A stretch of 64,000 nt of DNA from Terriglobia bacterium. Its GTDB lineage: Bacteria; Acidobacteriota; Terriglobia; JAIQFV01. Every line of letters starts with the position of its first letter. The stretch's first letter is position 1. Under the pieces are notes generated by a model. It had not been told where the DNA came from. It saw only the letters and a list, made by a program, of their open reading frames with translations, and made no database searches. Below, in pieces: positions 44,073 through 63,280 of the stretch. Where the stretch lies: the NCBI GenBank assembly GCA_020073085.1, contig JAIQFV010000020.1, forward strand, positions 1-64,000, in the 5' to 3' direction. Both the position numbers and the translations under genes were made by a program.

Positions 44073-45914
44073 ATGGCGATCAAACTGAATAACGAAGGGG
44101 TTCGAAGGGTTCCCCATGCAGGCAAGGCGCCCGCCGGGCGGGTGTCGCGTCTTCGCTTTGCGATGCTGCTGTTGTGTCTGAGTGTTGGATTGGGCCTGTG
44201 CTCCATATTGGTTGCCCAGCCACGAACCCAGTCTGCGACCGGCGCTTCCAAGGACGCTGCGATCGTCAACGTGCAGGGGCAGCGAGGAGGACGTCTGGTT
44301 GTGGGAACCACGGCGGCGCCCCGGTCCTTCAATTGGGTCATTGCGAACGACAGTGCCTCCCGGCAGGTGACCTATCAGCTGTTGGGCGATCTGATTCACC
44401 TCAATCGCGCGACGCAGCAGATTGAGCCCGCCCTAGCCAAGTCCTGGCAGATTTCCAAGGACGGGTTGGTCTACACCCTACGCTTGCGGGAAGGGGTCCG
44501 TTTCTCGGACGGTCATCCCTTTGATGCGGATGATGTGATCTTCACCTTCCAAGTCTACCTTGACCCCCAAGTGAACTCAACGCAACGGGCGCTCTTGACC
44601 ATCAATGGGAATCCCTTGAAGGTGGAAAAACTGGGGCCGTTGGCGGTGCGCTTTACCTTTCCGCAAGCCCATGGGCCTGCCGAGCGGGCTTTCGATGTCA
44701 TTGGGATCCTGCCTCGACACTTGCTCGAGGGCGCTTATCGTGAAGGGCGTTTTGAGAAGATGTGGACGCTGGCAGAGGACCCCAAGAACGTGGTCGGGTT
44801 AGGCCCTTTTCGTTTGCAGAAAATCATCCCGGGGCAGCGCGTGATCCTCGAACGCAATCCCTATTACTGGAAGGTCGATGCTCAAAAAAATCCGCTGCCT
44901 TATCTCGATGAGCTCCTTTTTGAGGTCCTGCCGGACCAAAACGCCGCGACCTTGCGGCTTCTCAGCGGCGATATCGACTTGCTCGACAAGGTGCTCCCCA
45001 CCGACTATGAGTTTCTGAAGAAATCGGAGGGGGAGAAGGGGATCTCCCTGATCAATGCCGGGCCCAGCCTGCAATACCTTTTTCTCGGGTTCAATCTGAA
45101 CAACAGTGTGAACGCGGCGACGCAGAAGCCCTATGTGGACCCGGAGAAGGAAGGCTGGTTTTCCAACCTCAATTTTCGCCGTGCCATCGCCTATGCCATC
45201 GATCGCGCCTCCATCATCAAGCTGGTGTATCACGGGACCGCGCACGAGATTTTTGCGCAGACCAGCCCCAGCAACAAGTTCTGGTTCAATCCGAAGATCA
45301 TGCAGTACGACTTCAATCCCAGCCGGGCACGGGAACTGCTCTCTCAGGCGGGTTTCCGCGTGCGGCCCGGTGATGGGGCCCTGCTGTCTCCCTCCGGCGC
45401 CCGAGTTGAATTTACCCTGGTGACCAACGCTGACAACCGCGAGCGGACCCGGATCGCCAGCCTCATCCAGTCCGACCTGCAGCAGCTGGGAATCCAGGTG
45501 AAGTTTCAGGGGGTGGAGTTCAATGCCCTGGTTGGGAAGCTGACCCAAACCTTCGACTACGAAGCCGTCATCATGGAACTCGGAGGGGGAGATGACGATC
45601 CGGGGAGCGAAATGAACGTGTGGCTCTCGAGCGGGAATCTCCATGTCTGGCACGTCGGAGAAGACAAGCCGGCAACGACATGGGAAGCCCGGATCGACAC
45701 CTTGATGAAACAGCAGATGACCACGGTCGCGCGACCAGTCCGCAAGCGGGCGTATGACGAGGTTCAGAAGATTATCTCTGAACAACTGCCGATCCTCCCC
45801 CTAGTCAGTCGCGATGTGGTGGTCGCAGCGAAAAAACAGATTGGTAATCTGCAGCCGGCAGTCATGGTCCCGTATGCCTTATGGAACTCCGAACAACTGT
45901 ATCTCAAGCACTGA
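44073..45914 (+). CDS. Extracellular solute-binding protein, family 5 (peptide/nickel type)
   Basis: 613 residues from ATG 44073, preceded by AGAGGG. Signal peptide around residues 23-45 (LRFAMLLLCLSVGLGLCSIL). PALAKSWQISKDGLVYTLRL, VRFSDGHPFDADDVIFTF and NFRRAIAYAIDRASIIKLVY are the conserved stretches of SBP_bac_5. Permease and ATPase genes do not follow. Instead its last 34 bases overlap an ECF sigma gene, so this protein is transcribed into the CHAT/sigma cluster. It may bring peptides in, or act as an envelope sensor for that cluster; inference only. Confidence 0.85.
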   Translation: MAIKLNNEGVRRVPHAGKAPAGRVSRLRFAMLLLCLSVGLGLCSILVAQPRTQSATGASKDAAIVNVQGQRGGRLVVGTTAAPRSFNWVIANDSASRQVTYQLLGDLIHLNRATQQIEPALAKSWQISKDGLVYTLRLREGVRFSDGHPFDADDVIFTFQVYLDPQVNSTQRALLTINGNPLKVEKLGPLAVRFTFPQAHGPAERAFDVIGILPRHLLEGAYREGRFEKMWTLAEDPKNVVGLGPFRLQKIIPGQRVILERNPYYWKVDAQKNPLPYLDELLFEVLPDQNAATLRLLSGDIDLLDKVLPTDYEFLKKSEGEKGISLINAGPSLQYLFLGFNLNNSVNAATQKPYVDPEKEGWFSNLNFRRAIAYAIDRASIIKLVYHGTAHEIFAQTSPSNKFWFNPKIMQYDFNPSRARELLSQAGFRVRPGDGALLSPSGARVEFTLVTNADNRERTRIASLIQSDLQQLGIQVKFQGVEFNALVGKLTQTFDYEAVIMELGGGDDDPGSEMNVWLSSGNLHVWHVGEDKPATTWEARIDTLMKQQMTTVARPVRKRAYDEVQKIISEQLPILPLVSRDVVVAAKKQIGNLQPAVMVPYALWNSEQLYLKH

Positions 45915-46516
45915 AATCGTCGACCCCCGAATCGTCTGTGGATGATCAGGAACTGATCCGGCGGTGCATGAACGGGGAGGAGTTGGCCTGGGAGTGTCTG
46001 GTCGAGAGGTACAAACGGTTGATATATTCCATTCCCATTAAGAATGGTTGTCAATCCAGCGATGCCGCCGACATTTTCCAGTCCGTCTGCCTGGATTTGC
46101 TTGAAAGCCTGGCCAGTTTGCGAGACTCCACCAAACTCAAGACCTGGCTGGTCACGGTGACGGTCCGCAAGTGCATCGATTTGCGGCAGAAGATGAGCCG
46201 CGAGGGGGTGACGCTTTCCGAGGGAGAGGCGGACCTCGTAGCGGACCACAGATCGGACATTTCCCGGATTTCCCTGGAAGTGGAGCAGGAGCAGGTGATT
46301 CGAGAGGCGTTGAAGAAGCTCCCGCTGCGCTGCGCCACCCTGATCCAGCACCTCTTTTTTGACGAGCCCCACCTTTCGTATTCTGAGATCGCCGTGCGGT
46401 TCGGGGTATCCAGCAACAGCATCGGGCCGGCACGCGACCGATGCCTCGAGAAGTTGAAGGATCTCCTCGAAGGAGCTCCCCCTTCGGCGGACGAACCGAA
46501 CGGATCGAAGAAATGA
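45881..46516 (+). CDS. ECF-type sigma-70 family factor, copy A
   Basis: 211 residues. Region 2 is about residues 25-95 (LIRRCMNGEELAWECLVERY, then DAADIFQSVCLDLLESLASL and WLVTVTVRKCIDLRQK). Region 4 is about 145-205 (ALKKLPLRCATLIQHLFFDE, then YSEIAVRFGVSSNSIGPARD). Closely resembles copy B at 53264. It starts inside the solute-binding gene and ends four bases before the CHAT gene, so all three are on one message. No membrane anti-sigma gene is adjacent; the soluble zinc-finger protein at 49741 is the only candidate. Confidence 0.85.
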   Translation: MELRTTVSQALKSSTPESSVDDQELIRRCMNGEELAWECLVERYKRLIYSIPIKNGCQSSDAADIFQSVCLDLLESLASLRDSTKLKTWLVTVTVRKCIDLRQKMSREGVTLSEGEADLVADHRSDISRISLEVEQEQVIREALKKLPLRCATLIQHLFFDEPHLSYSEIAVRFGVSSNSIGPARDRCLEKLKDLLEGAPPSADEPNGSKK

Positions 46517-46520
46517 ACCC

Positions 46521-49463
46521 ATGAAGATTTCCGGTGAACGCGCCATGCCTCTCTCTGACCTTTCTGCGCCGACCCTTTCCCCCGCGGAATGGGTTGAGAA
46601 AATCGCCCATTCAGAATCTCCCGAGGAGATCGCGGATCCGCTGGCGGGCTGGTCGAATCCGGTCGGTCTTTCTTTGGTCGAACACCTGACGCAGGAAGTG
46701 ATCCGGTACAGTCGAAGGGATCCCAAGGCGACCATGCGTCTCGCCCAGGCCGCCCACGTCGTGGCCACTCGATTGGGAGATCCCAAGGCGATGGCCCTGG
46801 CCGAGCGCGCACTGGGAAACGCGGAACAAGTGGGTGGAAACAACAGGGCGGCAGCCGCGCACTACCGTAGCTCCATCCAAAGATTTGAAGCCCTGGGCGA
46901 CGAGATCGAACTCGCGCGTACGCTGTCGTCCTCCGTGGGGGTCCTGGTGTACCTGGGAGAGTACGACCGGGGTCTCGAGGAGGCGGAACGGGCCAAGGAG
47001 ATTTTTGAGCGTTACCAGGATGAAGCGCGGCTGGCGCGCCTGGAAGTCAATCGCGGCAATCTCTACCATCGACTCGATCGATTTCAGGAAGCGATCGCTT
47101 GTTACGATAGCGCTCTTGCCGTCCTGGAGCGAAGCGGCGACTATGAGGCCATTGCAGGGATTAAAAGCAACCAGGCCACCTGTCTCATCACATTGAACCG
47201 GTTCGAAGATGCGCTGAAGAGTTATCGTGAGGCCCGCGCCCTCTGCGAGGAGCATCAAATGCCCCTCCTGGTGGCACAGGCCGATTACAATATTTCCTAC
47301 CTCTATTATCTCCGCGGCGAATATACCCGGGCGCTGGAAATGCTGTCGGCGGCCGCAATCTCGTTTCAGGAGCGCAACAATGTGCAGCACCTCGCGCTGT
47401 GCGACCTCGACCAGGCCGAGATCTATCTCGAATTGAATTTGTCGCGGGATGCCATCGAGCTGAGTGAGCGCGCGGCGGAGCGATTCCTCCAGATCGGGAT
47501 GCGTTACGAACGCGCCAAGGCGATCACCATCTCGGCCACGGCGCGCACGCAGACGCAGGAGTTCTTCAAGGCCCTCGAAATGTTTGACCAGGCCCGATCC
47601 CTGTTTGCAGCAGAAAACAACCTCGTGTGGATGGCGATGGTGGATTTGTACAAGGCCACCATCTTTTATTCAACCGGCCGTCACTTTGAGGCTTTGAATC
47701 TCTGCCGGACCGCACTCCACCACTTCGAATCGCAACAGCTGGTGGGAAAGGCCGTTTTCACGGAAATTCTGATGGCCAAGATCTCGCTGGGACTCGGCGA
47801 GGCGCCCCAGGCCGAACTGCGTGCGCAGTCTGCGACCACCCATCTGGGCCAAGTCAATGCGCCCTGGCTGAATTATCAGGCCTACTACACCCTGGGACTG
47901 ACCCAGGAAGCGGTGGGCGATGTCGCGGCGGCCGAGAAGAGCTACCTCCAGGCCATCGCCGTCCTCGAGACCATGCGCGGCAACATCATGGCCGACGAGC
48001 TGAAGATCATGTTCTTTAAAGACAAGCAGTCGGTTTATGAAAGGTTGGTGACACTCAGTCTGGACAACCCCAAGGGAGGAGGGGTGGCCGAGGCCTACGC
48101 GCTCGTGGAACGGGCCAAGTCGCGGGCCCTGGTGGATCTGCTCTCCTCGGGCGTGGCCCATGTTCGTCGCGCCAGAAATTCCAGCAGCGAAGTCATCGAT
48201 CACCTCCATCAACTCCGCCAGGAGTTGAATTGGTTTTACAGCAAGGTCAATTTAGAAGAAGCCCAGGGGAAGGCGGGGAACGAAGTCAAGGTCACCGCCT
48301 TGCGGGAGTTGATCCAACAGCACGAATCTCAACTACTGAAGGTCCTCCGTCAGTTGCCCGCGGAAGACGAGGAATACGCCTCGTTACATTGTGCGGTCTC
48401 AGTCCGGACGGAGCGCATCCAGCAGTCGCTCACCGAGTCTCAGACGCTGATTGAGTACTTCCTGGTGCGGGACAAGGTGATCGCTTTTCTGTTGACACGG
48501 GAAGGGCTGAAGGTGATCTCCGGGTTAGGAGACGCTTCGGCGGTCAAGAATCAGCTCGATCTGCTGAAATACCAGTTCAGCAAATTCAACTTCGGATCGA
48601 GCTACGTCTCCAACCATCACGCCTACCTCCAGAAATCGATTGATACCCATCTCTCCGACCTTTATGAATCCTTGTTTGAACCATTGACTCCTGAACTGAC
48701 AGGGCGAGATTTGATCTTTGTCCCCCACGAGTTCCTGCACTGTGTTCCATTCCATGCCCTCAAAAGAAGGGACGGCTACCTGATTGAGGACCACAGCATC
48801 TCCTACTCGCCCAGTGCGAGTGTTTTTAAGCTCTGCAGTGGCAAGCCCCCCTCCGGAAAGGCGTCTTCTCTCGTCATGGGAGTGCCCGACATCAAGATTC
48901 CTCACGTGTTGGATGAAGTCCGCGATGCCTCCGCGCTCTTGTCCAATTGCACCCTTCTCGTGGGAGCCGAAGCAACCGAGGAAAAACTCAAGTCCCTGGG
49001 GGGCGAGGCGTCCATTGTGCATATCGCCTCGCATGGCGTCTTCCGCAACGACAACCCGATGTTTTCATCGATCTATCTGGGCTCGTCTTCTCTGAGCCTG
49101 TTCGACATTTACAATATTGAACTGGATGCAGACCTCGTTACCTTGAGCGGCTGCGGAACGGGAATGAACCGCATTGTCGGGGGTGATGAACTGGTGGGTC
49201 TGGTGCGGGGATTCCTGTATGCCGGGGCCCGCTCCCTCCTGGTCAGCCTGTGGAATGTCTACGACCGTTCCACGGCGGAGCTGATGCAGGCGTTTTACAA
49301 ATACCTGAAACACAACAAGAACATCGCCCAGAGTCTCTGTTTCGCGATGCGGGACATCAAGGAAAAATACTCCCATCCCTACTACTGGGCGCCTTTCATC
49401 CTGATGGGGAAGACAACCCTGGGATCCGCCACGGGAAGCGGCTGCCCACCAGGGGAGGTTTGA
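46521..49463 (+). CDS. TPR-CHAT protease, copy A
   Basis: 980 residues, cytosolic (no signal peptide). Residues ~80-520 are TPR-like helical repeats (ARLEVNRGNLYHRLDRFQEA; ADYNISYLYYLRGEYTRALE). About 650-970 is a CHAT caspase-type domain: VHIASHGVF supplies His838 and LSGCGTGMN supplies Cys878, both intact, followed by the GGDELVGLVRGFLYAGA helix and YYWAPFILMG end. CHAT proteases are peptidases activated by their repeats. In the type III-E CRISPR system (Craspase) a TPR-CHAT protein cuts Csx30, which restrains an ECF sigma factor. Here too the neighbour is an ECF sigma, but there is no Cas gene. Confidence 0.9.
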   Translation: MKISGERAMPLSDLSAPTLSPAEWVEKIAHSESPEEIADPLAGWSNPVGLSLVEHLTQEVIRYSRRDPKATMRLAQAAHVVATRLGDPKAMALAERALGNAEQVGGNNRAAAAHYRSSIQRFEALGDEIELARTLSSSVGVLVYLGEYDRGLEEAERAKEIFERYQDEARLARLEVNRGNLYHRLDRFQEAIACYDSALAVLERSGDYEAIAGIKSNQATCLITLNRFEDALKSYREARALCEEHQMPLLVAQADYNISYLYYLRGEYTRALEMLSAAAISFQERNNVQHLALCDLDQAEIYLELNLSRDAIELSERAAERFLQIGMRYERAKAITISATARTQTQEFFKALEMFDQARSLFAAENNLVWMAMVDLYKATIFYSTGRHFEALNLCRTALHHFESQQLVGKAVFTEILMAKISLGLGEAPQAELRAQSATTHLGQVNAPWLNYQAYYTLGLTQEAVGDVAAAEKSYLQAIAVLETMRGNIMADELKIMFFKDKQSVYERLVTLSLDNPKGGGVAEAYALVERAKSRALVDLLSSGVAHVRRARNSSSEVIDHLHQLRQELNWFYSKVNLEEAQGKAGNEVKVTALRELIQQHESQLLKVLRQLPAEDEEYASLHCAVSVRTERIQQSLTESQTLIEYFLVRDKVIAFLLTREGLKVISGLGDASAVKNQLDLLKYQFSKFNFGSSYVSNHHAYLQKSIDTHLSDLYESLFEPLTPELTGRDLIFVPHEFLHCVPFHALKRRDGYLIEDHSISYSPSASVFKLCSGKPPSGKASSLVMGVPDIKIPHVLDEVRDASALLSNCTLLVGAEATEEKLKSLGGEASIVHIASHGVFRNDNPMFSSIYLGSSSLSLFDIYNIELDADLVTLSGCGTGMNRIVGGDELVGLVRGFLYAGARSLLVSLWNVYDRSTAELMQAFYKYLKHNKNIAQSLCFAMRDIKEKYSHPYYWAPFILMGKTTLGSATGSGCPPGEV

Positions 49464-49740
49464 AGAAGAGAGGGGCACTTTGGAATTGACTGGGTCGAAG
49501 GAAGGTTGTCGCAGCGCCCTCGGGAACCCTTGGACCGTCTCCGTTCGGTCATCTTGACCGAAGTTCAGTCAACATTATCGATTCAATGCGATCTTTTAAA
49601 AAAAATTTCAACGGCCATGCACTATTTTTCACATTCGAGCCACTTTATTAGTGTGGAGGGTGTCTCATTTTCGCTGTAATTGACGAGTAGTCTTGCCGAT
49701 GAACGATCCGGTCGACGTGGAAACGGAGAAGGGGAAGAGA

Positions 49741-50394
49741 ATGGACAACAAGCATTTTATCGAAGAGATCTTCGCGCGATTCGTCGCAGGATGCTTGGCG
49801 GGAAAAGAGCGCGAGGAGTTTGAGGTGCACCTCAAGGGGGGCTGTGAATCCTGCGAGGAAGCCATTCGCTGGTACCGCGGGTTGTCGAGCATGCTCCAAA
49901 ATGACCGCGGATTTGAACCGCCGGAGTCGTCCGTCCGAGGCGTCGTGAACGCTTTCCGCCGGCAGAAATCCCGAGTGACGAACCTGGTCTGCACGGTGGC
50001 CGACATGCTGTTTGATAGTTTTGTGGACCCCTTGCCGGCCGGCGTACGGCAACTCGCTGCGACGGAACGCCAGGTCCTCTATCTGGCGGATGAAGTTCAG
50101 CTCGACCTGAAAATCGACAAGACCAACAGGGAACACGAGCGCATGATCATTGGTCAACTATTGCCTCGACGCTCCACGTCTCCGGGGAATCTTGGCCTTT
50201 CGAAAGTGACGCTGCGTTCGGGGGAACGGGTCGTGCAGTCGACATACACCAACGAACTCGGCGAGTTCATTCTCTGTGTGGTGCCCCGTGGGAACTATGA
50301 TCTAGAGGTTCTCCTGGCCAACTCGAGGAAGATCCTTGTTCCCAACGTCCCCCTGGTCAATCGTGAGGAGTCACCGGGAGCAGCGCCACAATAA
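49741..50394 (+). CDS. Soluble HC2-type zinc-finger protein, copy A
   Basis: 217 residues from ATG 49741, which has AAGGGGAAGAG just upstream and makes the N terminus align with copy B; an earlier ATG at 49699 is possible. FARFVAGCLAGKEREEFEVH, then H-x4-C-x2-C (HLKGGCESC), resembles the zinc-binding anti-sigma fold (zf-HC2), but no membrane segment follows. A shared FDSFVDPLPAGVRQ block and a strand-rich C-terminal half with YTNELGEFIL (carboxypeptidase-regulatory-like) come next. Probably a cytosolic regulator of the sigma or CHAT protein. Confidence 0.7.
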   Translation: MDNKHFIEEIFARFVAGCLAGKEREEFEVHLKGGCESCEEAIRWYRGLSSMLQNDRGFEPPESSVRGVVNAFRRQKSRVTNLVCTVADMLFDSFVDPLPAGVRQLAATERQVLYLADEVQLDLKIDKTNREHERMIIGQLLPRRSTSPGNLGLSKVTLRSGERVVQSTYTNELGEFILCVVPRGNYDLEVLLANSRKILVPNVPLVNREESPGAAPQ

Positions 50395-50477
50395 GGGAAC
50401 ATTTTTTGAATGTACTGAATCCTGATGTTTAGCATTTTTACCTCTTTGGTTTTTTTATTCGTTTGAGGAGAAGGATC

Positions 50478-52016
50478 ATGATGAAATCTCTGAAGATGCC
50501 TGCCTCTCCATTTCTTAGAAATCTGATTCAAAAAGCCCTGCCTGCTCTTGTCGCCCTTGTCCTCCTGGCGGGCCTCGCGTACGCAAGACCGGAGACCAAG
50601 AATCAAAGCATCATTACCTTGGAGCGCGGGGCTTCGGTGCGTGATGTACTCAAGGCGTGCCGCGCCCGCGTGGTCAAGGAACTCACCCCGGGCGAGACCT
50701 TCTTGATCCAGGCGATTGACCGGGCTTCGTCCTCGGAGCTGGTGAAACGATGTTCCAAGGCCCGCGGAGTGGAGAGCGTCGAGCCGAACCGCGTCGTTTC
50801 CGTTCCTTCCCGTCTCCGAAACCGGACCGGAGAGTTGAGCCAGTCCACCGTCGCCCTGTTGAATCAATCCACCGTGGCCCTTTTGAACGAGGCCGCCTTG
50901 GCCAATTATTATGGGGCGAACGTAAAATCCAGTTACCCCACCCAGCCGGCTCTGACCCTGATGGGGAATGAGCAAGCCCACACGGTTTCCACAGGGATGG
51001 GCATGGTCGTGGCCGACATCGATAACGGGGTCGACCCCGATAATCCCGTCCTCAAGAGTGTGCTGATCAGCGGCTACAATTTTGTCGATGACAATGCGGA
51101 TGTGAGCGAATGGACCGGGATGGACCAGTCCACGGTCGCATTGCTCAATCAGAACCAATCGCTGGGACTTGACCAGTCCACCGCTTCTCTGCTGGACCAA
51201 TCGACCGTCGCGTTGTTGAATCAATCGACGGTGGCCTTATTGAACCAGTCGACGGTGGCCCTGCTGAACCAGTCGACGGTGGCCCTGTTAAATCAGTCGA
51301 CCGTGGCCTTGTTGAACCAATCCACGGTGGCCCTGCTGAACCAATCGACCGTCGCGCTGCTGAATTCGTTGCCGCCGGACTTCGGACACGGAACCATGGT
51401 TGCCGGGCTGATTCACGTGGTGGCCCCCGATGCTCGAATCCTGCCGTTGAAGGCGTTCGGCGCGGACGGAACAGGAACCCTTTCGGATGTAGTAAGTGCC
51501 ATTTACTACGCGACCGACCATGGCGCCAATGTGATCAACATGTCGTTCTCGTTCTCAGATGATTCCTTGACCTTGAGGAAAGCAATCAGTTATGCGCTTA
51601 ACAAGAAGGTCGTTTTGGTTTCTTCCATGGGGAACGATGGTCTGGAAACTGCGAACGTTTTTCCCTCGGCTTATCCGGGGGTCTATGGGATCGCCGCTAC
51701 GGATAACCAAGACATCGTTGCGCCGTTCTCGAATTATGGGACGGTGACTGGATACACGGCTCCCGGGGTCAACTTAATCACTTTCTTTCCCGGAGGGCAT
51801 TACGCCCTGGTGTCCGGCACGTCTTTTTCGAGCGCCCTGATTTCCGGCGTGTCCGCCTTGGGTGTCTCAGCCCGGGGATCGATCCTCGGTCAAATTTCTT
51901 CGGCGATCTCACTATCGGCAGTCCCCATCGATGCCTTGAATCCTGGCTTTGAAAAGAAGCTGGGCGGGGGTCGCATCGACGAGGCCCAGACGATCCTAAG
52001 CCTGCAGCCCAAGTAA
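50478..52016 (+). CDS. Secreted S8 subtilase with octapeptide arrays, copy A
   Basis: 512 residues; ATG 50478 follows GAGGAGAAGG. Signal peptide (LPALVALVLLAGLAYA), an I9-like propeptide (about 32-115), then the S8 domain: Asp182 (DIDNGVD), His304 (FGHGTMVAG), Ser449 (SGTSFSSAL). Between Asp and His stands an array of ten octapeptides (consensus QSTVALLN), and two more lie before the catalytic domain (about 122-137). The insert makes the Asp-His distance about 122 residues against the usual 30-60. The seven perfect copies differ only at synonymous codon sites. Export suggests an extracellular or periplasmic role. Four bases before an HD-GYP gene. Confidence 0.9.
   Translation: MMKSLKMPASPFLRNLIQKALPALVALVLLAGLAYARPETKNQSIITLERGASVRDVLKACRARVVKELTPGETFLIQAIDRASSSELVKRCSKARGVESVEPNRVVSVPSRLRNRTGELSQSTVALLNQSTVALLNEAALANYYGANVKSSYPTQPALTLMGNEQAHTVSTGMGMVVADIDNGVDPDNPVLKSVLISGYNFVDDNADVSEWTGMDQSTVALLNQNQSLGLDQSTASLLDQSTVALLNQSTVALLNQSTVALLNQSTVALLNQSTVALLNQSTVALLNQSTVALLNSLPPDFGHGTMVAGLIHVVAPDARILPLKAFGADGTGTLSDVVSAIYYATDHGANVINMSFSFSDDSLTLRKAISYALNKKVVLVSSMGNDGLETANVFPSAYPGVYGIAATDNQDIVAPFSNYGTVTGYTAPGVNLITFFPGGHYALVSGTSFSSALISGVSALGVSARGSILGQISSAISLSAVPIDALNPGFEKKLGGGRIDEAQTILSLQPK
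50841..50888 (+). repeat. Two octapeptide codon repeats at the propeptide junction
   Basis: Two 24-base units encoding QSTVALLN twice, placed between the propeptide and the catalytic domain of the copy A subtilase. The same unit recurs in the inner array. Confidence 0.9.
51126..51365 (+). repeat. Tandem 24-base coding repeat (ten octapeptides)
   Basis: Ten consecutive units: QSTVALLN, QNQSLGLD, QSTASLLD, then seven QSTVALLN. All seven last units differ in nucleotides yet encode the same residues (CAA/CAG, TCG/TCC, ACC/ACG, GTC/GTG, Leu codons, AAT/AAC). Not CRISPR: no spacers, and in frame. Confidence 0.95.
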
Positions 52017-52020: not shown

Positions 52021-52725
52021 ATGCGAGGAAATCCCTTGGGAGACGCCGCATTCTCAAAGTTCTCTGAGTTGGAAGTGCGGGAGACAGCCCGCCAAACTCC
52101 CAAGGCTGTCAACACGGAATACTGCAGTGTCCCGGCGGCCACAGTGGAGGCGCGGCGTTTCCTCCTGTCTGCAGTGGGTTCCTTGGTGGCGCTGCTTGAC
52201 CTGAAAGACCAATACACGGGCATCCACGGCGCCCAAATGAGCAACTGGGCGCTGGGGATGACCAAGATGTTCGATCTGACCCCCCAAGAGATTGAAAACA
52301 TTCAGATTGCCGCAACCCTCCACGATATTGGCAAGGTCGGAATCCCCGATGCCATCCTCAAGAAGGACGAGCCGCTCGAACCTGAAGAGTGGAAGCTGAT
52401 GAAGAAGCATCCAGAATACGGATGGGCCATCACGAAAGAGATCATCGGGATGGAAAAAGTCAGCCTTTACATCCTTCACCATCATGAAAACTACAACGGC
52501 ACTGGGTACCCGGCCGGCCTGAAGGGGGAAGGGACGCCCCTGGGTGCCCGTATCATCACCATCCTCGATTGTTTTGACGCCATGACGCATGATCGCTCCT
52601 ATCGCAAGGCGTTATCGCTCGATCGGGCCCTGGCCGAGTTGAAGAAATATTCGGGAGAGCAGTTCGATCCCGAACTCGTTGAGCTCTTTACGGAATACAT
52701 CCTCTTCACTTCCCAAGAAGGCTGA
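52021..52725 (+). CDS. HD-GYP domain phosphodiesterase
   Basis: 234 residues. LHDIGKVGIPDAILKK carries the HD pair, and HHHENYNGTGYPAGLKGEG the G-Y-P motif of c-di-GMP phosphodiesterases; the metal-binding His/Asp set looks complete. The N-terminal ~50 residues are not a recognised receiver or sensor domain. It begins four bases after the subtilase stop, so likely on the same message. Alternative start codons inside the first 40 residues cannot be excluded. It would lower c-di-GMP, of note because PilZ genes are nearby. Confidence 0.85.
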   Translation: MRGNPLGDAAFSKFSELEVRETARQTPKAVNTEYCSVPAATVEARRFLLSAVGSLVALLDLKDQYTGIHGAQMSNWALGMTKMFDLTPQEIENIQIAATLHDIGKVGIPDAILKKDEPLEPEEWKLMKKHPEYGWAITKEIIGMEKVSLYILHHHENYNGTGYPAGLKGEGTPLGARIITILDCFDAMTHDRSYRKALSLDRALAELKKYSGEQFDPELVELFTEYILFTSQEG

Positions 52726-53263
52726 TCCCCCCATAGACCCTCCTGATTTGACCCTTCGCGTTTTTTCGATTGAAAAAGAATCCTTGCTGCGCCAGAATGA
52801 AAACCCTGGCGAGGGACCGGGAGATGCATCCACAGGTCGGGAAGGTCGCCTCCGTTTCTCAAGGGAATTGTGACCTGTCTCCCTGCATTTCGAGCCTTCG
52901 TGGCCTCCTCATTGGATGGAGCTGCTTCGAGGAGTGGGGTCGCCTTTCTAATTAGACCGGGGAGCCTGCCGAATAGAGCTTGTGGCCGCTTTTAACCCCA
53001 GGCCACACCATGGGGATGATCTTATTTCCCGATAACGCTGCACACCTAGCGGTGATTCGTTTAACCTAACATCAACACAAGCGCGTTTACGAGGGCATTG
53101 CGGGGACTCAGGGGATAGCGGTGACGGGTCCGGCGGCGGACAGGGGAACTGAGGGTTTGCAGGGAGCCCCGCACTTTGCGAAGAAGGTTACGCGGCCTGC
53201 CGGCAAGTTCCACTCGAGATGGGGGCCCATGATGTTGATGTTTTCGGAAAGGTCTCTAATCGG
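52726..53263. other. Non-coding stretch between copy A and copy B
   Basis: About 540 bases. No hairpin terminator with a T-run was seen. A promoter for copy B should lie here. The sigma start at 53264 is preferred over GTG/ATG codons upstream. Confidence 0.4.
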
Positions 53264-53854
53264 ATGACGGTCGAATTGAGCAACGCGGCAATGAAGTGGG
53301 AGGACGCGCAACTGGTCCGTCAGTGCCTCGCTGGGAATGAAGAGGCCTGGACAGCCCTCATCGACAAGTACAAGAATCTGATCTATTCCATTGCCATAAA
53401 GTATCATGCGGCGCCGGAAGACGCTGCCGACATCTTCCAGGCGGTATGTCTGGATCTCTATTCCGAGCTTCCTCGGCTCCGTAAAACGGAGTCTTTTCGT
53501 TCCTGGCTGATCACCATGGCGACTCACAAGGCATTTCACTGGAAGCTGAAACAGCGGCGGCAGACGACCCGGGAAGTCAGTGATGGGGATGAGACCGAAC
53601 TCGGCGACGAACCCGCCGTTTCACCTCAATTGATGGAGGATGTTGAACGCGAACAGATCGTTCGTGAAGCCGTTGCCAGTCTTTCCGAACGCTGCCGGCA
53701 ATTGATTCAACTTCTTTTTTACGAGCACCCTCCCATGCCTTACCGTGACGTGGCGCAGAAACTTGGCCTCGCCACCGGTTCCCTGGGCTTCATCCGCGGT
53801 CGTTGCCTGAGCCGCCTTCAAAAGGCCCTGGGGGAGAGGGGCTTCGAGGAATGA
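53264..53854 (+). CDS. ECF-type sigma-70 family factor, copy B
   Basis: 196 residues from ATG 53264, with AAAGG upstream; an in-frame ATG 15 codons earlier is less likely. Region 2 (LVRQCLAGNEEAWTALIDKY, then DAADIFQAVCLDLYSELPRL) and region 4 (AVASLSERCRQLIQLLFYEH, then YRDVAQKLGLATGSLGFIRG) match copy A nearly block for block. Its TGA overlaps the CHAT start as ATGA, so the two are translationally coupled even more tightly than in copy A. Confidence 0.85.
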   Translation: MTVELSNAAMKWEDAQLVRQCLAGNEEAWTALIDKYKNLIYSIAIKYHAAPEDAADIFQAVCLDLYSELPRLRKTESFRSWLITMATHKAFHWKLKQRRQTTREVSDGDETELGDEPAVSPQLMEDVEREQIVREAVASLSERCRQLIQLLFYEHPPMPYRDVAQKLGLATGSLGFIRGRCLSRLQKALGERGFEE

Positions 53855-56757: not shown

Positions 56758-57097
56758 TCAAGAATTCGTAGTCCCGATTTCCCCAGGCTCTTCCCAGGCC
56801 GTATCGATCAAGTGGTGTTCACACTGATCAGTAATGCGATGCGTCTCCGGTCTCGCGCGCTTCTCCGGCTGTCATTTGGAGCCGGGTATATTTTCTGAGC
56901 GGGGAGCACACCCTTTAGTAAACGAGCAGAAGAGATCGAATCGCCGGTTCCTGGCCGAGGGGAAAGCCTGGGAAGGAACCCACAAACTAAAATCCAACTT
57001 GACAGTGGAGTGAGCTTCTCAAGGGCATCACCTCATGCCTGAGAGGACCGCGCGGTTCCATCAAAAGATGAATTGACCATTAAATGAGGAGCAGAAC
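56758..57097. other. Intergenic, no gene seen
   Basis: About 340 bases. GAGGAGCAG just before 57098 is the ribosome site of the next gene. Confidence 0.4.
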
Positions 57098-58333
57098 ATG
57101 AAAAATCAAAATCACCGGGGAAGAACTCTTAAGATCGCCATTTTCGCGCTGATCCTGAGTTTCGGACTCGCATCACGGACCGTGGTATTTGGCAGTGACA
57201 ATGAAATTGAATTCAAGGGCAGAATTACGCAAATCGAAAGAACGTCTTCAACCGCCGCGAGACTCACCGTTTCCCTGAGCACTCCCTCTTCAGGGGGACC
57301 CCAGACAGTGGTGTTGGTGGATGATATGACGAAGATCGTCAAAGCAGGTGACGTCGAGAGGTCCCTGGATGACTTGAGTGTAGGACAATTTATCGAAGCC
57401 CGAGGCATCTTCACATCCAAAGGCATCGATGCGCGCAAGTTTGAAATTCAAGCAGAGAAGGAAGCCGAAAATGAGTTTCGCATCCGGGGCGAAGTGGAGA
57501 GTATGGACTTAAGCAGCGGCACTGCAAGGCTGAGCATCGGCGGCTCGAGTATTTCGGTTACCGCTTCCGCTCACATCCGGCATCGGGGGGACAATCAGGA
57601 ACTCCGGCCCGACGACCTGATCGCCGGTCAACCCGTGGACGTGGACGGTTTCATGCAGAACGGACAATTGATCGTCACTCAGGTGGAAGTGGGTCAAAAG
57701 ATGGAGGACCAGGCTGAACTCGAACTCCACGGGACCATCACCGCAATCAACGGAAACAACCTGACGATTGAAATGGCAAAGCAACCCTCGATCAGCGTCG
57801 TCATCACCCGAACCGATGCCACCCGTGTTGAGGGATCACTGTCGGTTGGAGTGGATGTCGAGGTCAAGGGCATGATGGCGAGGGATTTTAGTATTGTCGC
57901 ACAAAAAATCGAAGTGGAGGGTGCGGTCGAAGCGGAGATCGAGCACGCCGGCGGGGATGATCACGGCGGGGCGGGAGATGCCGCCAACAATGCGCCTCAA
58001 AATGTCTCGCGAGAGATTCAATTGAGTGCTGTCGGAATTGCCCCGAAGGAAGCTGAAGGGGATGCCGAAGTGGAGTTCGAATCCCAGGAGGGGAGTGTCG
58101 CACAAAAGCTAAATGTAAAAGGAGATAAGCTCGCCCCTAACTCCACGTTCAGTGTAGCAGTCACTGTCAATGGAGGCTCGGTTAACGTGGGGTCCTTTAT
58201 GACGGACAACCGCGGGCGAGGTGAATTGGCACTGCAGTGTGGTTCGACCTGCCCGGGATTCTCGTCAGTTCTTGACATCCATGCGGTCCAGGTCCTGAGT
58301 GGTGGCTCGGCCGTCTTACAGGGATCGTTCTAA
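57098..58333 (+). CDS. Secreted protein with repeated DUF5666-type domains
   Basis: 411 residues; GAGGAG before the ATG. Signal peptide (IAIFALILSFGLASRTVVFG). Then three or more ~65-residue OB-like units with the pattern EFKGRITQIER...LSVGQFIEARGIF and EVESMD...LIAGQPVDVDGF, the form of DUF5666. The C-terminal ~100 residues differ (an acidic/His-rich joint near HAGGDDHGGAG, then a beta-rich end). Probably periplasmic; function unknown. It lies between the copy B CHAT and zinc-finger genes, where copy A has nothing. Confidence 0.75.
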   Translation: MKNQNHRGRTLKIAIFALILSFGLASRTVVFGSDNEIEFKGRITQIERTSSTAARLTVSLSTPSSGGPQTVVLVDDMTKIVKAGDVERSLDDLSVGQFIEARGIFTSKGIDARKFEIQAEKEAENEFRIRGEVESMDLSSGTARLSIGGSSISVTASAHIRHRGDNQELRPDDLIAGQPVDVDGFMQNGQLIVTQVEVGQKMEDQAELELHGTITAINGNNLTIEMAKQPSISVVITRTDATRVEGSLSVGVDVEVKGMMARDFSIVAQKIEVEGAVEAEIEHAGGDDHGGAGDAANNAPQNVSREIQLSAVGIAPKEAEGDAEVEFESQEGSVAQKLNVKGDKLAPNSTFSVAVTVNGGSVNVGSFMTDNRGRGELALQCGSTCPGFSSVLDIHAVQVLSGGSAVLQGSF

Positions 58334-58992
58334 GGAACGGGTGTGTGGTGGGGCCTTCAACCGCCTCTTTGAGGGATTGGAGGCCCCCAGTGTCTTTGTT
58401 GTCGGGCATTCTTTCTAACCCTCCCCAGACCCCTAAAGAGGACTGCTATCTGAGATCTTCCGACGGCACAGCAGAGATGGACCCCGGGGGAGGCTCGAGT
58501 TTCCGCGTTAGACTGGATCGCTGAAGCTGAGGGAGGCTGGATGCCAGGTGAGGGTGGCTATGGAGCTATTAAATAATGATCTCCAAAGTGGCAGCGGACG
58601 TAAAATTCAGCTCTTGTTTGTAAAAAATTCTTGTCTTGGGTATATTTTTGATCACGAGTCATCACCCTCATACATTGGAGGCTAATGCATTGACTTTCCA
58701 GCAGGAATCGGCCTTCAAAGAGGTTCAAAGGGTGGGAGAGCTCAAGACAAAGATGCCACATGGGGCAACCGGACACTCCCGCCAATCTGCACTAATAAGT
58801 TGATTTTAAATATGTTAGCTTTTACCTGTTTTGAGTTCATGGAGCGAGCCAACCAATGAGAATCAAGACCAATTACAACGCTTTTATGAGTCTGGCTTGG
58901 CTTACGGTTATTCCCGTGAAGACAATGACTTCGGTGGCAAATGAATGGTCGTTGAGGACAGAACTTGTTGTGAAACAAGCCAGGGGTGGCCA
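58334..58992. other. Non-coding stretch with a hairpin
   Basis: About 660 bases. Holds the hairpin at 58350-58387 and otherwise only short frames. A/T-rich around 58790-58850, where a promoter for the zinc-finger gene may lie. Confidence 0.4.
58350..58387 (+). terminator. Hairpin after the DUF5666 gene, weak terminator
   Basis: Stem GGGGCCT/AGGCCCC extended by TCAA/TTGG, 17 bases after the stop. No T-run follows, so it may not terminate by itself. Confidence 0.4.
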
Positions 58993-59685
58993 ATGAAGCA
59001 TTATGACATCACAGAATGGAGCGATTTTGCTCGCGGCTTGACCGAGGGCATCGATCGCAGTTCGATGGAAAGGCATCTAGAGCTCGGTTGCAGTCAGTGC
59101 CGACGCACAGCCCGTCTGTTCATTGATTTGGCGAGGATCGCCAAGGCCGAACCACAGTTTCAGGTACCCCTGTCCGTCGAGCGTCTCGCGAAGGCAATTT
59201 TAGCCATGAACCAGCCGGAAAAGTTGAGGCGCCTGCCCCGATTCGTGCCGCGCCTTGTCTTCGACAGCTTCCGAAGCCCCTTGCCAGCAGGAGTGCGCTC
59301 CCGGCAGGGAATGACCCGGCAGGCGTTATACAGGGATCATGCAGCAAATTTTTCACTTGACCTGAGATTGGATCACGAGCCGGGTTCTTCACAAGTAGTT
59401 CTGGTAGGTCAAATTGCCAATTTCAAGGAACCTTCCAAGAGGCATTCGCATGTGCCGGTTTTCTTGCTGGCTGGAAGGGACATCGTGGCACGGACAGTGA
59501 GCAACCAGCTGGGCGAGTTCCAGTTGGAATGTCAGGCTAAAAAGCGCCTGCGATTGTGTGTGCCGGTCAATGACATGGAAACGACTCGGTTGATGGAGAT
59601 CTCCCTGAACCAGCTCGTCAAGGGAAAGCAGATTGAAGATTCAGCGTTGAGGCCGAAGCGGGCCATGAAGAAGGACAAGAAATAA
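58993..59685 (+). CDS. Soluble HC2-type zinc-finger protein, copy B
   Basis: 230 residues from ATG 58993. WSDFARGLTEGIDRSSMERH, then H-x4-C-x2-C (HLELGCSQC), VFDSFRSPLPAGVRS and SNQLGEFQLE follow the same order as in copy A. Apart from those blocks the two differ greatly, so the conserved parts are probably functional: a zinc site, a loop with Pro-Leu-Pro-Ala-Gly, and a carboxypeptidase-regulatory-like strand set. No membrane helix; basic C-terminal tail. About 300 bases before the second subtilase. Confidence 0.7.
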   Translation: MKHYDITEWSDFARGLTEGIDRSSMERHLELGCSQCRRTARLFIDLARIAKAEPQFQVPLSVERLAKAILAMNQPEKLRRLPRFVPRLVFDSFRSPLPAGVRSRQGMTRQALYRDHAANFSLDLRLDHEPGSSQVVLVGQIANFKEPSKRHSHVPVFLLAGRDIVARTVSNQLGEFQLECQAKKRLRLCVPVNDMETTRLMEISLNQLVKGKQIEDSALRPKRAMKKDKK

Positions 59686-59988
59686 AGGAAGCGCGGGAGT
59701 TGCTGTTGTCTTACGACCGGGACATTTCCCCGGGTTGGAGGGTGGCATGGAACAGGCGATTCGAGAGTGTCTTGGAGTTGGTCTTTGTTTTGCTATTGTG
59801 GGGGTTGCAAGGATGATGGAAATATCACTGAAGCATGTCTTGAGGGAAGATTTCCAGAAGAGAATGCTCCCACGATCCTTGAGCGTACCGCCGGAGGATG
59901 ACCGCGGGTAGCCCTTTGGGTCCACTGGTAATCAGGAAGTGCCAATACGCAGGGTATTCTGCGAAAAGGTTAGGGGATGGAGTCCACC

Positions 59989-61389
59989 ATGGGGTATAGG
60001 GCGAAACGATACATCTGGCTTCACTTATTTTTGGTACTCTGCTGGATTGCATTCCCGCAGGGATTCTTCGGTCGTAGCGCCGCCCAAAGTGCCCCCACTC
60101 AAACCCAGGCCGTCGCCAGCAATTTATTTATCCTCAGGACTCCAGCTGCAACTCGCGACAGTGTGTGCAGCAGAAACAACCTGCAGTTCATTCGTGGGGT
60201 CGATACTCCGGGCCATGATGTTTTCCTGGTGAGTGGACCAGCGGCGACCGATCCGGTGACGCTGGAGGACCATGTCAAGGGTGATGACGCGGTCCAAGGG
60301 TTCGAGCAGGTGGGGGGCGTGTTTGTTCCCGAAGCGCTTGCCGGTGCGAATCTGAACCAGTCGACTGTTGCCTTTCTGGATGCGTTGGGAAACACGGCCA
60401 CCACTTCTTTTTCCGGAGACATCGTCAGGGCAAGCTACGTCAGCCAGCCGGCAACTGCGATCATCAACATGCCGAGCGCCCAGGGCATCGCGAGCGGGGC
60501 GGGGATTGTTGCCATTATCGATACGGGCCTTGATCCCGATCATCCCGCGCTAAGGCGATGGGTGGTTCCCGGTTTTGACTTCGTCCACAATGTGGCCGGA
60601 ACAGCGTCCGAGTGGAGCGACCTTGCCCAGTCCACCGTGGCTTTTCTGGATCAATCCACTGTGGCGTTCCTCGATCAAACGAGTTCTGCGGTATTGAATC
60701 AATCGACCGTGGCGTTTCTGGATCAATCGACCGTAGCGTTCCTGGATACCAACAAGCCTCCTGCCGCCTTCGGTCATGGCACCATGGTCGCTGGGATTGT
60801 GCATCTGGTTGCCCCCACAGCCAAGATCATGCCTCTGAAGGCCTTTCAAGCAGATGGCAGCTCAAATACCTTTGATATTATCCGTGCGATATACTATGCA
60901 GTCGACAATGGCGCGAACGTAATCAATATGAGCTTCAGCCTGGCGGGTTTTTCTCAGGAATTCGTCAGGGCGATCAATTACGCTACCGATCATGGGGTGA
61001 TCTGCGTTGCCTCAGCAGGGAATGACGGGACGGATGACTTGAAGTATCCTGCGGCTTTGCGAAACGTCATTGGGGTGGCTTCCACCACCAACCTCGATGT
61101 CCGCAGCACGTTTTCCAATTTCGGATCGGGTCTGGTGACCCTGGCCGCCCCCGGAGAAGGGATTATCACGACCTATCCGGGTGGCCACTACGCCGCTGCC
61201 TGGGGTACCTCGTTCAGCGCTCCTTTCGTCGCCGGGGCACCGGGGTTGTTACTCCAATTTATTCCGAAAACCGATTTCTTCGGAGGCGTTGATGCACTGT
61301 CACACGCCAAAGAGCTCACCAGTGAGCTTGGCTATGGCAGGCTCGACCTCTACCAGGCGCTGACCTCACGACTCAAGTCTCTTCGCTAG
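59989..61389 (+). CDS. Secreted S8 subtilase with octapeptide arrays, copy B1
   Basis: 466 residues; an in-frame ATG four codons earlier is possible. Signal peptide (LFLVLCWIAFPQGFFG). The propeptide is ~45-120, then one QSTVAFLD (60358-60381) before the catalytic domain. Asp178 (IIDTGLD), His263 (FGHGTMVAG), Ser408 (WGTSFSAPF). Between Asp and His five octads stand: two QSTVAFLD, the variant QTSSAVLN, then two QSTVAFLD. The consensus swaps Leu-Asn of copy A for Phe-Asp. Similar to the next gene (copy B2) throughout. Confidence 0.9.
   Translation: MGYRAKRYIWLHLFLVLCWIAFPQGFFGRSAAQSAPTQTQAVASNLFILRTPAATRDSVCSRNNLQFIRGVDTPGHDVFLVSGPAATDPVTLEDHVKGDDAVQGFEQVGGVFVPEALAGANLNQSTVAFLDALGNTATTSFSGDIVRASYVSQPATAIINMPSAQGIASGAGIVAIIDTGLDPDHPALRRWVVPGFDFVHNVAGTASEWSDLAQSTVAFLDQSTVAFLDQTSSAVLNQSTVAFLDQSTVAFLDTNKPPAAFGHGTMVAGIVHLVAPTAKIMPLKAFQADGSSNTFDIIRAIYYAVDNGANVINMSFSLAGFSQEFVRAINYATDHGVICVASAGNDGTDDLKYPAALRNVIGVASTTNLDVRSTFSNFGSGLVTLAAPGEGIITTYPGGHYAAAWGTSFSAPFVAGAPGLLLQFIPKTDFFGGVDALSHAKELTSELGYGRLDLYQALTSRLKSLR
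60628..60747 (+). repeat. Tandem 24-base coding repeat (five octapeptides)
   Basis: Five in-frame octads, the third degenerate (QTSSAVLN). Codons differ between copies. A single further unit lies at 60358-60381. Confidence 0.93.
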
Positions 61390-61924
61390 ACAGAGTTCTA
61401 ATTTCAATCACAAATCTACTGGCTGTGTACACTTTTGAACCACCCCCTCGTTTCTTGAGGGAGAGGTTGCTGATGGATCCTATGGGTGTGTGTGTTCACG
61501 ACTCTATTGTAAGTTATTAAAATTAAATAGTTTACTGTTGTGACAACGAGTGAGAAGGAAGATCTCCAAGCGACATTTTGCGGGTATCCGAATGCTGGAA
61601 CCAGGATTGCTGTAAATTGGACTTACTCGACAATTGCACGTTTGATCCGCCAAGAAACATAGAATGTGCAATAACAAATCTTTCCATGGTTTAAAGAGTG
61701 TGTTCTAGTTTGAGTCACGACTCAAAAAGGTAGGGTAGATTCCCGATGGAATTCATCCCAGGGATGAAGCTAAGGCGTCATGAGTCAAAGTATTATTAGC
61801 TAAAGGGTTAGTTCTGGGTTGAGAAGGTGAAAAGAACAGAACGGGCGGGTTCGGGAGATGGTATGACGTTTGGTGTAACAATTGCTTTGGTTTCAGTGGT
61901 TAATTTTATTGCGGAGAAGGTGTC
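61390..61924. other. A/T-rich non-coding stretch between subtilases
   Basis: About 535 bases, poorer in G/C than the surroundings (runs such as TTATTAAAATTAAAT near 61515). Promoter for the last subtilase probable. GAGAAGG before 61925 is its ribosome site. Confidence 0.45.
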
Positions 61925-63280
61925 ATGAGACAAAACGCAAGACAACATTTCCGGGTTGCCCTTATTTTGGCTATTTTCCTGATCACGGTTCCGCTTCAGG
62001 CCGCTACCGGCGATATCTGTATTCTGCGGACGAGCGCCTCCTCATTGCAGACTGTGCTGAACAAGTACAACCTGCAACTCCTTGGTTCGGTGGACGGGGC
62101 ACACGATGTTTATTTGGTGCAGGAGCCCGTTACTGCATCTCCCCTCAACATGGATGCGATTGTTAAGGCCGACCCGGCAGTCCAGAATTTCGAGGAACTT
62201 GTCCCGGCAGTGATTCCCGAAAGCCCGGCTACTCTTCAAGCGGGTACAATGAGCCCGTCGACGGGTTCGCTCGCCAATCTGGCTTCCAGCCAAAGTTTTG
62301 TCAACTATGCGGGTGATTCCGTTTGGAGTAGTTACGTCAACCAGCCGGCTGCCAATATCATTAATCTCTCCAATGCCCATCAATACGCGACTGGCAAAGG
62401 AACGATAGCCATCATTGATACCGGCGTTGATCCCAATCATCCCGTGCTGAAGCGGTGGGTTACAACGGGCTATGATTTCGTGAACAATGTTATGGGGTCT
62501 GCATCGGAGTGGGTGGACCTGAGTCAATCCACGGTTGCATTCCTCGATCAGTCCACAGTGGCTTTTCTGGATGGCAGCAATCAAGCCGTCCTCAATCAAT
62601 CCACGGTTGCTTTCCTGGACCAGTCGACCGTCGCATTTCTCGATACGAACAATCTCCCTGTCGCATTTGGACATGGCACGATGGTGGCCGGGATTGTCCA
62701 CCTCGTTGCCCCTACGGCGAAGATCATGCCTTTGAAAGCCTTCCGGGCGGATGGAACATCGAACAGCTATGACATTATTCGTGCCATCTACTTTGCCGTC
62801 GACCATGGGGCCGATGTCATCAATATGAGTTTCAGTATGGCGAGTCCCTCCACTGAGCTTGTGCGTGCCATCAATTACGCCGCGGATCACGGGGTGATTT
62901 GCGTCGCCTCAGCGGGAAATGCGGGATCCGACACGCTTAGCTTTCCAGCCGCATTAAGGAATGTAATCGGCGTCGCCTCCACTGCGTGGAACGATTCGCG
63001 CAGTGCATTCTCCAACTATGGCTCTGGTCTGGTGGCCTTGGCAGCGCCGGGCGAAGCGATCGTCACTACTTACCCGGGTAACCACTACGCTGCGGTCTGG
63101 GGTACCTCTTTTAGCGCGCCGTTTGTGTCCGGCGCTCCTGCGCTGATCGAACAGCTGTATTCGAACACTTCTTACAACAGCAGCATGAACTCGCTCTCCC
63201 ATGCGAAGCAACTGACCACCGATCTCGGATTCGGGAGACTCGATCTCTATCAGGCTCTAACGTATCTCCAGAAGAACTGA
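61925..63280 (+). CDS. Secreted S8 subtilase with octapeptide arrays, copy B2
   Basis: 451 residues; GAGAAGG ten bases before the ATG. Signal peptide (FRVALILAIFLITVPLQA). Asp165 (IIDTGVD), His250 (FGHGTMVAG), Ser395 (WGTSFSAPF). Five octads between Asp and His: two QSTVAFLD, the variant GSNQAVLN, then two QSTVAFLD, the same pattern and order as in B1. In place of the propeptide octad it has a weaker MSPSTGSLAN. The whole arrangement and the equal spacing show that B1 and B2 come from one duplication that has since diverged. Confidence 0.9.
   Translation: MRQNARQHFRVALILAIFLITVPLQAATGDICILRTSASSLQTVLNKYNLQLLGSVDGAHDVYLVQEPVTASPLNMDAIVKADPAVQNFEELVPAVIPESPATLQAGTMSPSTGSLANLASSQSFVNYAGDSVWSSYVNQPAANIINLSNAHQYATGKGTIAIIDTGVDPNHPVLKRWVTTGYDFVNNVMGSASEWVDLSQSTVAFLDQSTVAFLDGSNQAVLNQSTVAFLDQSTVAFLDTNNLPVAFGHGTMVAGIVHLVAPTAKIMPLKAFRADGTSNSYDIIRAIYFAVDHGADVINMSFSMASPSTELVRAINYAADHGVICVASAGNAGSDTLSFPAALRNVIGVASTAWNDSRSAFSNYGSGLVALAAPGEAIVTTYPGNHYAAVWGTSFSAPFVSGAPALIEQLYSNTSYNSSMNSLSHAKQLTTDLGFGRLDLYQALTYLQKN
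62525..62644 (+). repeat. Tandem 24-base coding repeat (five octapeptides)
   Basis: Five in-frame octads, the third degenerate (GSNQAVLN). The degenerate unit is at the same place as in B1. Confidence 0.93.

Follow-up and report, generated by a model that had tools for sequence, protein, structure and literature searches.

The module and its conservation

The first 64,000 nucleotides of contig JAIQFV010000020.1 (forward strand) of the Terriglobia bacterium assembly GCA_020073085.1, referred to here as the window, carry two copies (A and B) of a module encoding an extracytoplasmic function (ECF) sigma factor, a protease that combines tetratricopeptide repeats with a CHAT domain (TPR-CHAT), a zinc-finger protein of the zinc-binding anti-sigma (ZAS) type, and secreted subtilases of the S8 family in which an octapeptide is repeated (Table 1). 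The first-pass annotation of this DNA had described four protein types occurring twice in the same order, with the sigma and CHAT genes coupled by ATGA or by 4 bases. All the genes it named are where it placed them, the junctions being a 4-base gap in copy A and an ATGA overlap in copy B; Pfam bore out Sigma70_r2/r4, TPR plus CHAT and Peptidase_S8 in the module proteins, and NCBIfam agreed on the domain types. The zinc-finger protein scored under the Pfam cut-offs. The oppA gene, which the first-pass annotation had missed, overlaps that of sigma A by 34 bases and is one of three SBP_bac_5 genes in the whole genome.

Table 1. Features of module copies A and B (window coordinates)
Feature	Position	Strand	Support or remark
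OppA-like oligopeptide-binding protein	44031..45914	+	Pfam PF00496 (SBP_bac_5) E 3e-89
ECF sigma factor, copy A	45881..46516	+	TIGR02937 E 4e-22; Sigma70_r2
Copy A TPR-CHAT protease (putative QSTVALLN receptor)	46521..49463	+	CHAT E 5e-60
Promoter-like bipartite site 5' of anti-sigma gene A, CTATTTTT-N-CTTTAT	49622..49648	+	variant form; sole match of pattern genome-wide
Anti-sigma factor A, ZAS type, with a CarboxypepD_reg-like beta-sandwich at the C terminus	49693..50394, likely start 49742	+	H21, H46, C51, C54
Secreted subtilase A, 10 QSTVALLN and one QSTASLLD	50463..52016	+	Peptidase_S8
Two octapeptide copies 5' of catalytic Asp, subtilase A	50841..50888	+	
Octapeptide copies lying between catalytic Asp and His, subtilase A	51126..51365	+	tandem array 51198-51365
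ECF sigma factor, copy B	53219..53854	+	TIGR02937 E 8e-26
Copy B TPR-CHAT protease (putative QSTVAFLD receptor)	ATG 53851..56757; reading frame open from 53803	+	CHAT E 2e-63
Promoter-like site 5' of DUF5666 gene	56886..56915	+	
Secreted DUF5666 protein within copy B, candidate sigma B target	57098..58333	+	PF18914 E 2e-17
Promoter-like site 5' of anti-sigma gene B	58640..58669	+	
ZAS-type anti-sigma factor, copy B	58945..59685	+	
Secreted subtilase B1, five QSTVAFLD	59977..61389	+	copies at 60358-60381, 60628-60675, 60700-60747
Secreted subtilase B2, four QSTVAFLD	61925..63280	+	copies at 62525-62572, 62597-62644

Searches covered the same class, three of its families, the phylum and named genome contigs, and after duplicate removal they yielded 164 distinct modules in Acidobacteriota. 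In the same-class whole-genome search the module was present in 51 of 200 genomes and 26 of 82 genera; the phylum search added nine genomes from other classes, and the named genome contigs gave 80 loci, with titles nearly all of Acidobacteriota. One module contig, CAJCHZ010000049 (locus L137), is labelled Betaproteobacteria and is probably a mislabelled Acidobacteriota metagenome-assembled genome (MAG). Nearest to the window is the MAG Terriglobia bacterium SRVP_39, at 90% identity. The data come from fragmentary MAG contigs, and start codons are approximate.

The conserved order, on one strand, is oppD-oppF-oppB-oppC-oppA-sigma-CHAT-ZAS-S8. Among the 96 modules with enough flanking sequence, sigma was found in 90, OppA directly 5' of sigma in 79, ZAS in 85 and S8 in 80, and where 6.5 kb or more of upstream sequence was available (49 modules), OppA was found in 42, OppC in 38, OppB in 37, OppD in 33 and OppF in 31. 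In a side lineage (f3) the order is sigma-ZAS-CHAT, then a mutase-like gene, then oppDF, and no S8 gene is adjacent. These results confirm that sigma, TPR-CHAT, zinc-finger and subtilase genes belong to one operon that is conserved in Acidobacteriota and that usually begins with the full set of genes for an oligopeptide importer, oppDFBCA. The earlier proposal that these families occur as neighbours thus holds over the 164 modules, and neither rarity of linkage nor a single recent duplication applies.

Copies A and B share 43% protein identity for CHAT, 39% for sigma, 31% for the zinc-finger protein and 40% for S8, and they must therefore be old; a recent local duplication is ruled out by these values together with the conservation of the module across families. 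Subtilases B1 and B2 are 58% identical and carry the same octapeptide. The genome has three further CHAT genes, none of them accompanied by the ZAS/S8 set.

The octapeptide of the subtilases

Among 134 S8 proteins, which hold the octapeptide within 420 to 940 residues, the number of copies ranges from 2 to 17. A pattern recognised the octapeptide in the module S8 of 123 of 127 modules, the remainder being degenerate or having none that was recognised. Most copies lie between the catalytic Asp and His, and 31 of the 134 proteins have a further one ahead of the Asp; a pattern for the triad itself found Asp in 126, His in 134 and Ser in 127 of them. The consensus is Q-S-T/S-x-x-I/V-L-D/E/N, and 49 different sequences were collected. 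A degenerate DNA pattern of the octapeptide gave 19 matches in the 5.8-Mb genome, all of them within the three S8 genes of the window. In a subtilase at L016 (10075-11976), 15 of 17 copies are exactly QSTGAILD and most precede the catalytic Asp.

Within proteins, 782 pairs of octapeptides differ by 3364 synonymous versus 144 non-synonymous codon changes, whereas between proteins the octapeptides differ at a mean of 3.08 of 8 residues. DNA-level homogenisation was ruled out, as the codons differ in nearly every copy; the scrambled codons imply that the identity of the copies is due to selection rather than DNA copying, and thus point to a single recognising partner. The two S8 paralogues of a module, 52-74% identical, share the octapeptide in nine of nine two-S8 modules (counted without the same-genus relative of the window), whereas in different modules with equally diverged S8 proteins the octapeptide is common to 1-27% of pairs. 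Since paralogous subtilases of one module carry the same octapeptide, its partner should act in trans.

A hydrophobic N-terminal segment is present in 130 of the 134 subtilases, and the CHAT and ZAS proteins lack signal or membrane segments. In the f3 lineage, L256 and L258 (genomes G026 and G002) have diverged arrays (QNMDMLLD; QSMMDLLE/QSCMDVLD) in unlinked subtilases, and their TPR pockets differ.

Covariation of the octapeptide with the TPR groove

The AlphaFold2 model of CHAT A (predicted local distance difference test score, pLDDT, 87) contains regular 40-residue TPRs with first helices at 88-104, 128-144, 168-184, 208-224, 248-264 and 288-304. First helices of TPRs line a concave groove. 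Asn217 and Asn257 are invariant and Asn177 is kept in 120 of 123 proteins; all three lie in first helices, as would be expected of residues that bind a peptide backbone. A domain scan of the protein returned TPR and CHAT only. The closest folds to the model are Csx29 of active Craspase (8eey, the top match) and separase, and the stretch 110-295 matches RapJ/RapF and also LGN and kinesin light chain. The Csx29 family NF041237, with its cut-off of 300, reaches scores of 68 and 58, the best stretch being in the CHAT part. The catalytic dyad is conserved (H838 in 120 and C878 in 122 of 123), which supports a catalytically intact protease.

In copy A numbering, used for all CHAT residues here, the ten columns with the best divergence-corrected association to the octapeptide all fall at residues 100-295, a clustering that S8 columns drawn at random, with variability matched to the octapeptide columns, reproduce with P about 0.001. 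The maximum correlation lies within this null (P 0.12), and only the TPR location exceeds it; the weight of the evidence is carried by a test of changes on the same branches of a tree built from sigma and from CHAT outside the TPR pocket. Changes in residue 6 of the octapeptide and the residue classes at CHAT 176 coincided in 8 of 9 cases (expected 0.5, p 1e-10), those of residue 8 and position 133 in 5 of 6 (p 2e-8) and those of residue 4 and position 213 in 13 of 26 (p 6e-7), these three pairs having been chosen after the data were seen. An unselected scan of 7208 octapeptide-CHAT pairs gave eight beyond the Bonferroni threshold, all at CHAT 103-251; the same scan of the S8 catalytic domain gave none in 2736 pairs. 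The twelve strongest octapeptide-CHAT pairs all lie within 85-325; the TPR first helices, with 97 of the 902 columns, account for 20 of the top 40. In sigma and ZAS no column had an octapeptide association above 0.25.

The order of contacts is reversed, as in an antiparallel arrangement (Spearman -0.86, p 0.0065): octapeptide residues 1-2 pair with CHAT 254-294, residue 3 with 231-264, residue 4 with 213/216/250, residue 6 with 176/210 and residue 8 with 103/133/151. At residue 8, D or N occurs with R133 (112 of 114) and E with L, V or I133 (9 of 9); for residue 2, the partner at position 290 is H when the octapeptide has S (97 of 98), R when it has E (5 of 5), Q when it has R (8 of 8) and V, I or L when it has H (9 of 9). 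Position 176 is mostly G where residue 6 is F, mostly S, T or A where it is I, and I or L where it is V, and M at residue 4 accompanies A250 (5 of 5). These correspondences read like a physical peptide-groove code and, with the branch test, strongly support the view that the octapeptide is a co-evolving ligand of the TPR groove of CHAT, as far as sequences can tell.

The TPR pocket was also used to predict the octapeptide of modules lacking a usable adjacent S8 gene, and distant S8 genes were afterwards sought in the genomes concerned. Nearest-neighbour prediction was exact in 42% of cases when based on the pocket and in 26% when based on the remainder of the protein, the former figure being optimistic because the pocket columns were chosen on the same data. 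For 14 modules outside the training set the mean was 1.4 mismatches per 8 residues versus 3.15 for random pairs, although relatedness alone would yield much of this. For L074, QETTPILD was predicted and found; for L070, QSTTSILD was predicted and QSTTAILD found; for L012, QSTAAILE was predicted and QSTAAILD found, where R133 demands D. L134, with Arg at 290, has QESAAILD, in line with the pairing of E2 and R290, and L215, with Leu140, has Gly at octapeptide position 5. An S8 gene of this family occurred in 18 of 19 searched genomes outside f3, several far from the module and most with such octapeptides. Receptor and signal thus tend to remain paired, also where their genes are unlinked.

Anti-sigma factor and candidate promoter

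The first-pass annotation had named the HC2 zinc-finger protein as a candidate regulator, an assignment that can now be made more specific: it is, by its sequence, a soluble ZAS-type anti-sigma factor. H21, H46, C51 and C54 are invariant in the alignment, H-x23-26-H-x3-4-C-x2-C is found in 112 of 120 proteins, and the profile matches, weakly, the structures of RslA, RsiW, DdvA and ChrR (E 0.002-0.1). The model has four N-terminal helices; a Foldseek search with it gave matches to the beta-sandwich only.

A bipartite motif, CCTATATTTTTT-N13-CCCTTAT, recurs in the gap between the CHAT and ZAS genes, where its first part precedes 74 of 120 ZAS genes. Of 36 strict matches, 35 have a spacing of 14; across 2.5 Mb of module loci the motif matches 63 times, 52 of them in that gap. 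We consider it a candidate promoter for the sigma factor. The sites 5' of the DUF5666 gene and of anti-sigma gene B are two of its three matches in the genome; the third (L269, 1501-1530; G000:C18:99300-99329) lies about 600 bases before a secreted-protein gene. A promoter motif common to the zinc-finger and S8 genes had been suggested, but none was found: this one precedes none of 123 S8 genes. The S8 genes may be transcribed by read-through from ZAS (median gap 117 bases). In some lineages GTAC[TC]AT (31 of 123) and GGTAC..AGTACC elements lie upstream of the S8 gene; in L023, L024, L092, L104, L115 and others, a GGTAC-N4/5-GTACC inverted repeat stands about 45 bases before CGTACTATT and about 100 before S8, and perhaps marks a separate regulator of the subtilase.

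A proposed peptide-signalling operon

We propose that this operon of soil Acidobacteriota is probably a cell-to-cell peptide-signalling system, in which the octapeptide is re-imported by Opp and read by TPR-CHAT, the anti-sigma factor is cut and sigma is set free. The octapeptides, present in several identical copies in the secreted subtilase, would be released outside the cell, perhaps by the enzyme's own activity; the OppA-like protein would bind the octapeptide and the co-encoded transporter would bring it back. With a signal peptide on the subtilase and none on the receptor, the octapeptide would have to be released and to return, and the linkage of the Opp genes makes this importer the obvious route. 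In the cytoplasm it would lie antiparallel in the groove of TPR helices A1-A6 and switch the protease on (or off), a gating that may be analogous to that of Csx29 by target RNA (PMC10028731). CHAT would then cut the ZAS protein, its likeliest substrate, and free the co-translated ECF sigma factor, which would read from the site 5' of the anti-sigma gene, producing more anti-sigma factor and more octapeptide-bearing subtilase. The outcome would be a quorum-type feedback with the signal built into a secreted public-good enzyme. The first-pass annotation had already suggested that a CHAT protease cuts a regulator to free the sigma factor that drives the secreted proteases; the module, the anti-sigma identity and the intact CHAT agree with that suggestion, and cutting of the predicted anti-sigma factor is a reasonable step, but the input, namely the octapeptide ligand and the Opp importer of the operon, had been left out.

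Several observations weigh against this proposal. Copy B has no Opp gene nearby and copy A none other than oppA. OppA looked at first sight like a strong covarying partner of the octapeptide, and its covariation then fell within the random-column null (P 0.11). Two OppA pairs pass the branch scan, and sigma and ZAS each yield one 'significant' pair, hits that set the false-positive level of a test which treats branches as equal and uses Fitch states. No cleavage site was identified in ZAS, and about 40% of ZAS genes have no promoter-like motif in front of them. The excision of the octapeptide from the subtilase, its ends and its carriage by Opp are putative.

The main competing explanation is an intracellular secretion check, in which TPR-CHAT binds the octapeptides of unsecreted subtilase precursor, as a backlog sensor, chaperone or quality-control protease, and Opp is nutritional. 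It accounts for the TPR-octapeptide covariation and the multiple copies with no release step, and it sits well with the isolation of copy B from Opp genes. However, no other upstream neighbour is as regular as Opp, whose genes run in the same direction and abut sigma, the Opp ATPase genes persist beside sigma-ZAS-CHAT in f3, where the adjacent S8 gene is absent, and the identical repeats resemble multi-copy pheromone precursors (PMC9765709). We regard this explanation as unlikely, mainly on account of the Opp linkage.

Less probable still is a role in nutrient proteolysis, with the subtilase digesting environmental protein, Opp importing the products, TPR-CHAT and sigma reporting the supply, and the array serving as an internal reporter that an active protease sets free. 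The presence of a secreted subtilase and Opp in one operon would fit it, and it departs from peptide signalling mainly in purpose rather than in machinery, yet general sensing would not predict 49 specific octapeptides matched to their own TPR grooves. Finally, the position of the copies between the catalytic Asp and His, and in some proteins also before the Asp, might suggest recognition by the subtilase's own active site (autoprocessing or an inhibitory plug) or a purely structural repeat, but this is very improbable: the lack of covarying pairs with the S8 catalytic domain, against the strong covariation with TPR-CHAT, rules out recognition by the active site, paralogues as diverged as those of the two-S8 modules carry the octapeptide of their module, and a structural repeat would not stay identical within proteins yet change between them.

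Relation to known systems

The proposed input resembles that of the RRNPP(A) regulators (Rap, NprR, PlcR, PrgX, Rgg/ComR, AimR), which have a cytoplasmic TPR receptor, a short linear peptide, a secreted precursor (sometimes multi-copy) and re-import by Opp (PMC9765709). A TPR-groove receptor is suggested here by the covariation of the octapeptide with the first (A) helices and by the match to RapF/RapJ, which are RRNPP receptors of imported Phr peptides. In contrast to those systems, the operon belongs to Acidobacteriota and not Bacillota, and the putative receptor is a CHAT protease, the domain scan showing no helix-turn-helix, phosphatase or anti-activator output. Moreover, the signal would reside inside a full-size secreted subtilase instead of at the C terminus of a small propeptide, the output would pass through an ECF sigma/ZAS pair, and the Opp genes are part of the operon. 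Bacillota tandem-repeat pheromone propeptides also hold several identical copies of the signal in a secreted precursor (PMC11343458; PMC9765709); they differ from the precursor described here, which is a full-length protease with copies between catalytic residues.

On the output side, the Csx29-Csx30-CASP-sigma system of Craspase likewise places a TPR-CHAT protein, Csx29 being the top fold match, beside an ECF sigma factor and its inhibitor; Csx30 inhibits CASP-sigma and its cleavage relieves the inhibition (PMC10028731). Unlike Craspase, the operon has no Cas7-11 among its gene neighbours (Opp, sigma, ZAS and S8; CRISPR arrays were not searched for), the proposed trigger is a peptide and not RNA, the inhibitor would be ZAS and not Csx30, and cleavage is here a prediction. 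As for the anti-sigma factor, it shares with ChrR, RsrA, RslA and RsiW the H...HxnCxxC ligands, the N-terminal helices, solubility and a place beside an ECF sigma gene. The ZAS motif is H-X3-C-X2-C (PMC6432622), whereas the proteins described here usually have one extra residue in HxnC. They also differ in ending in a carboxypeptidase-regulatory-like beta-sandwich rather than a cupin or membrane part, and in having a protease gene between sigma and anti-sigma.

The proposed system has an RRNPP-like input and a CASP-like output but lacks defining features of both, and it is on this ground taken to be of a new kind. We lean, with somewhat less assurance than for peptide signalling as such, towards the view that Acidobacteriota have a form of quorum sensing, with the receptor inside the cell, that makes up a class of its own, in which a repeat pheromone is carried in a protease, Opp is encoded in the operon and a peptide-gated CHAT frees an ECF sigma factor by cutting ZAS, with at least 49 pherotypes set by a residue code and orthogonal channels (A, QSTVALLN; B, QSTVAFLD) in one genome.

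To our knowledge, CHAT proteases are common in bacteria and their triggers are mostly unknown. The open-access literature, which may miss prior work, yielded no report of CHAT with Opp or with an octapeptide subtilase, nor any of quorum sensing by peptides in Acidobacteriota. If the proposal is correct, one operon unites the octapeptide as trigger, TPR helix A as receptor surface, ZAS as likely substrate and sigma as output. The dozens of natural peptide-groove pairs would then make the evolution of specificity directly testable, and the peptide-receptor code would offer orthogonal peptide-switched proteases for engineering.

Other observations

A further CHAT gene of the genome (L006, G000:C7:16001-36000; 9161-14204, minus strand) has a signal-like N terminus and lies directly 3' of genes for proteins of 344 and 222 amino acids, by eye an anti-sigma/sigma-type pair; this locus is possibly a second, envelope-located CHAT regulatory unit. 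In the window, an HD_5 (HD-GYP-like) gene at 52021-52725 starts 5 bases past subtilase A and could be a cyclic-di-GMP output or a chance neighbour, and a gene of the phage-integrase family lies at 26429-27697, about 18 kb 5' of the module.

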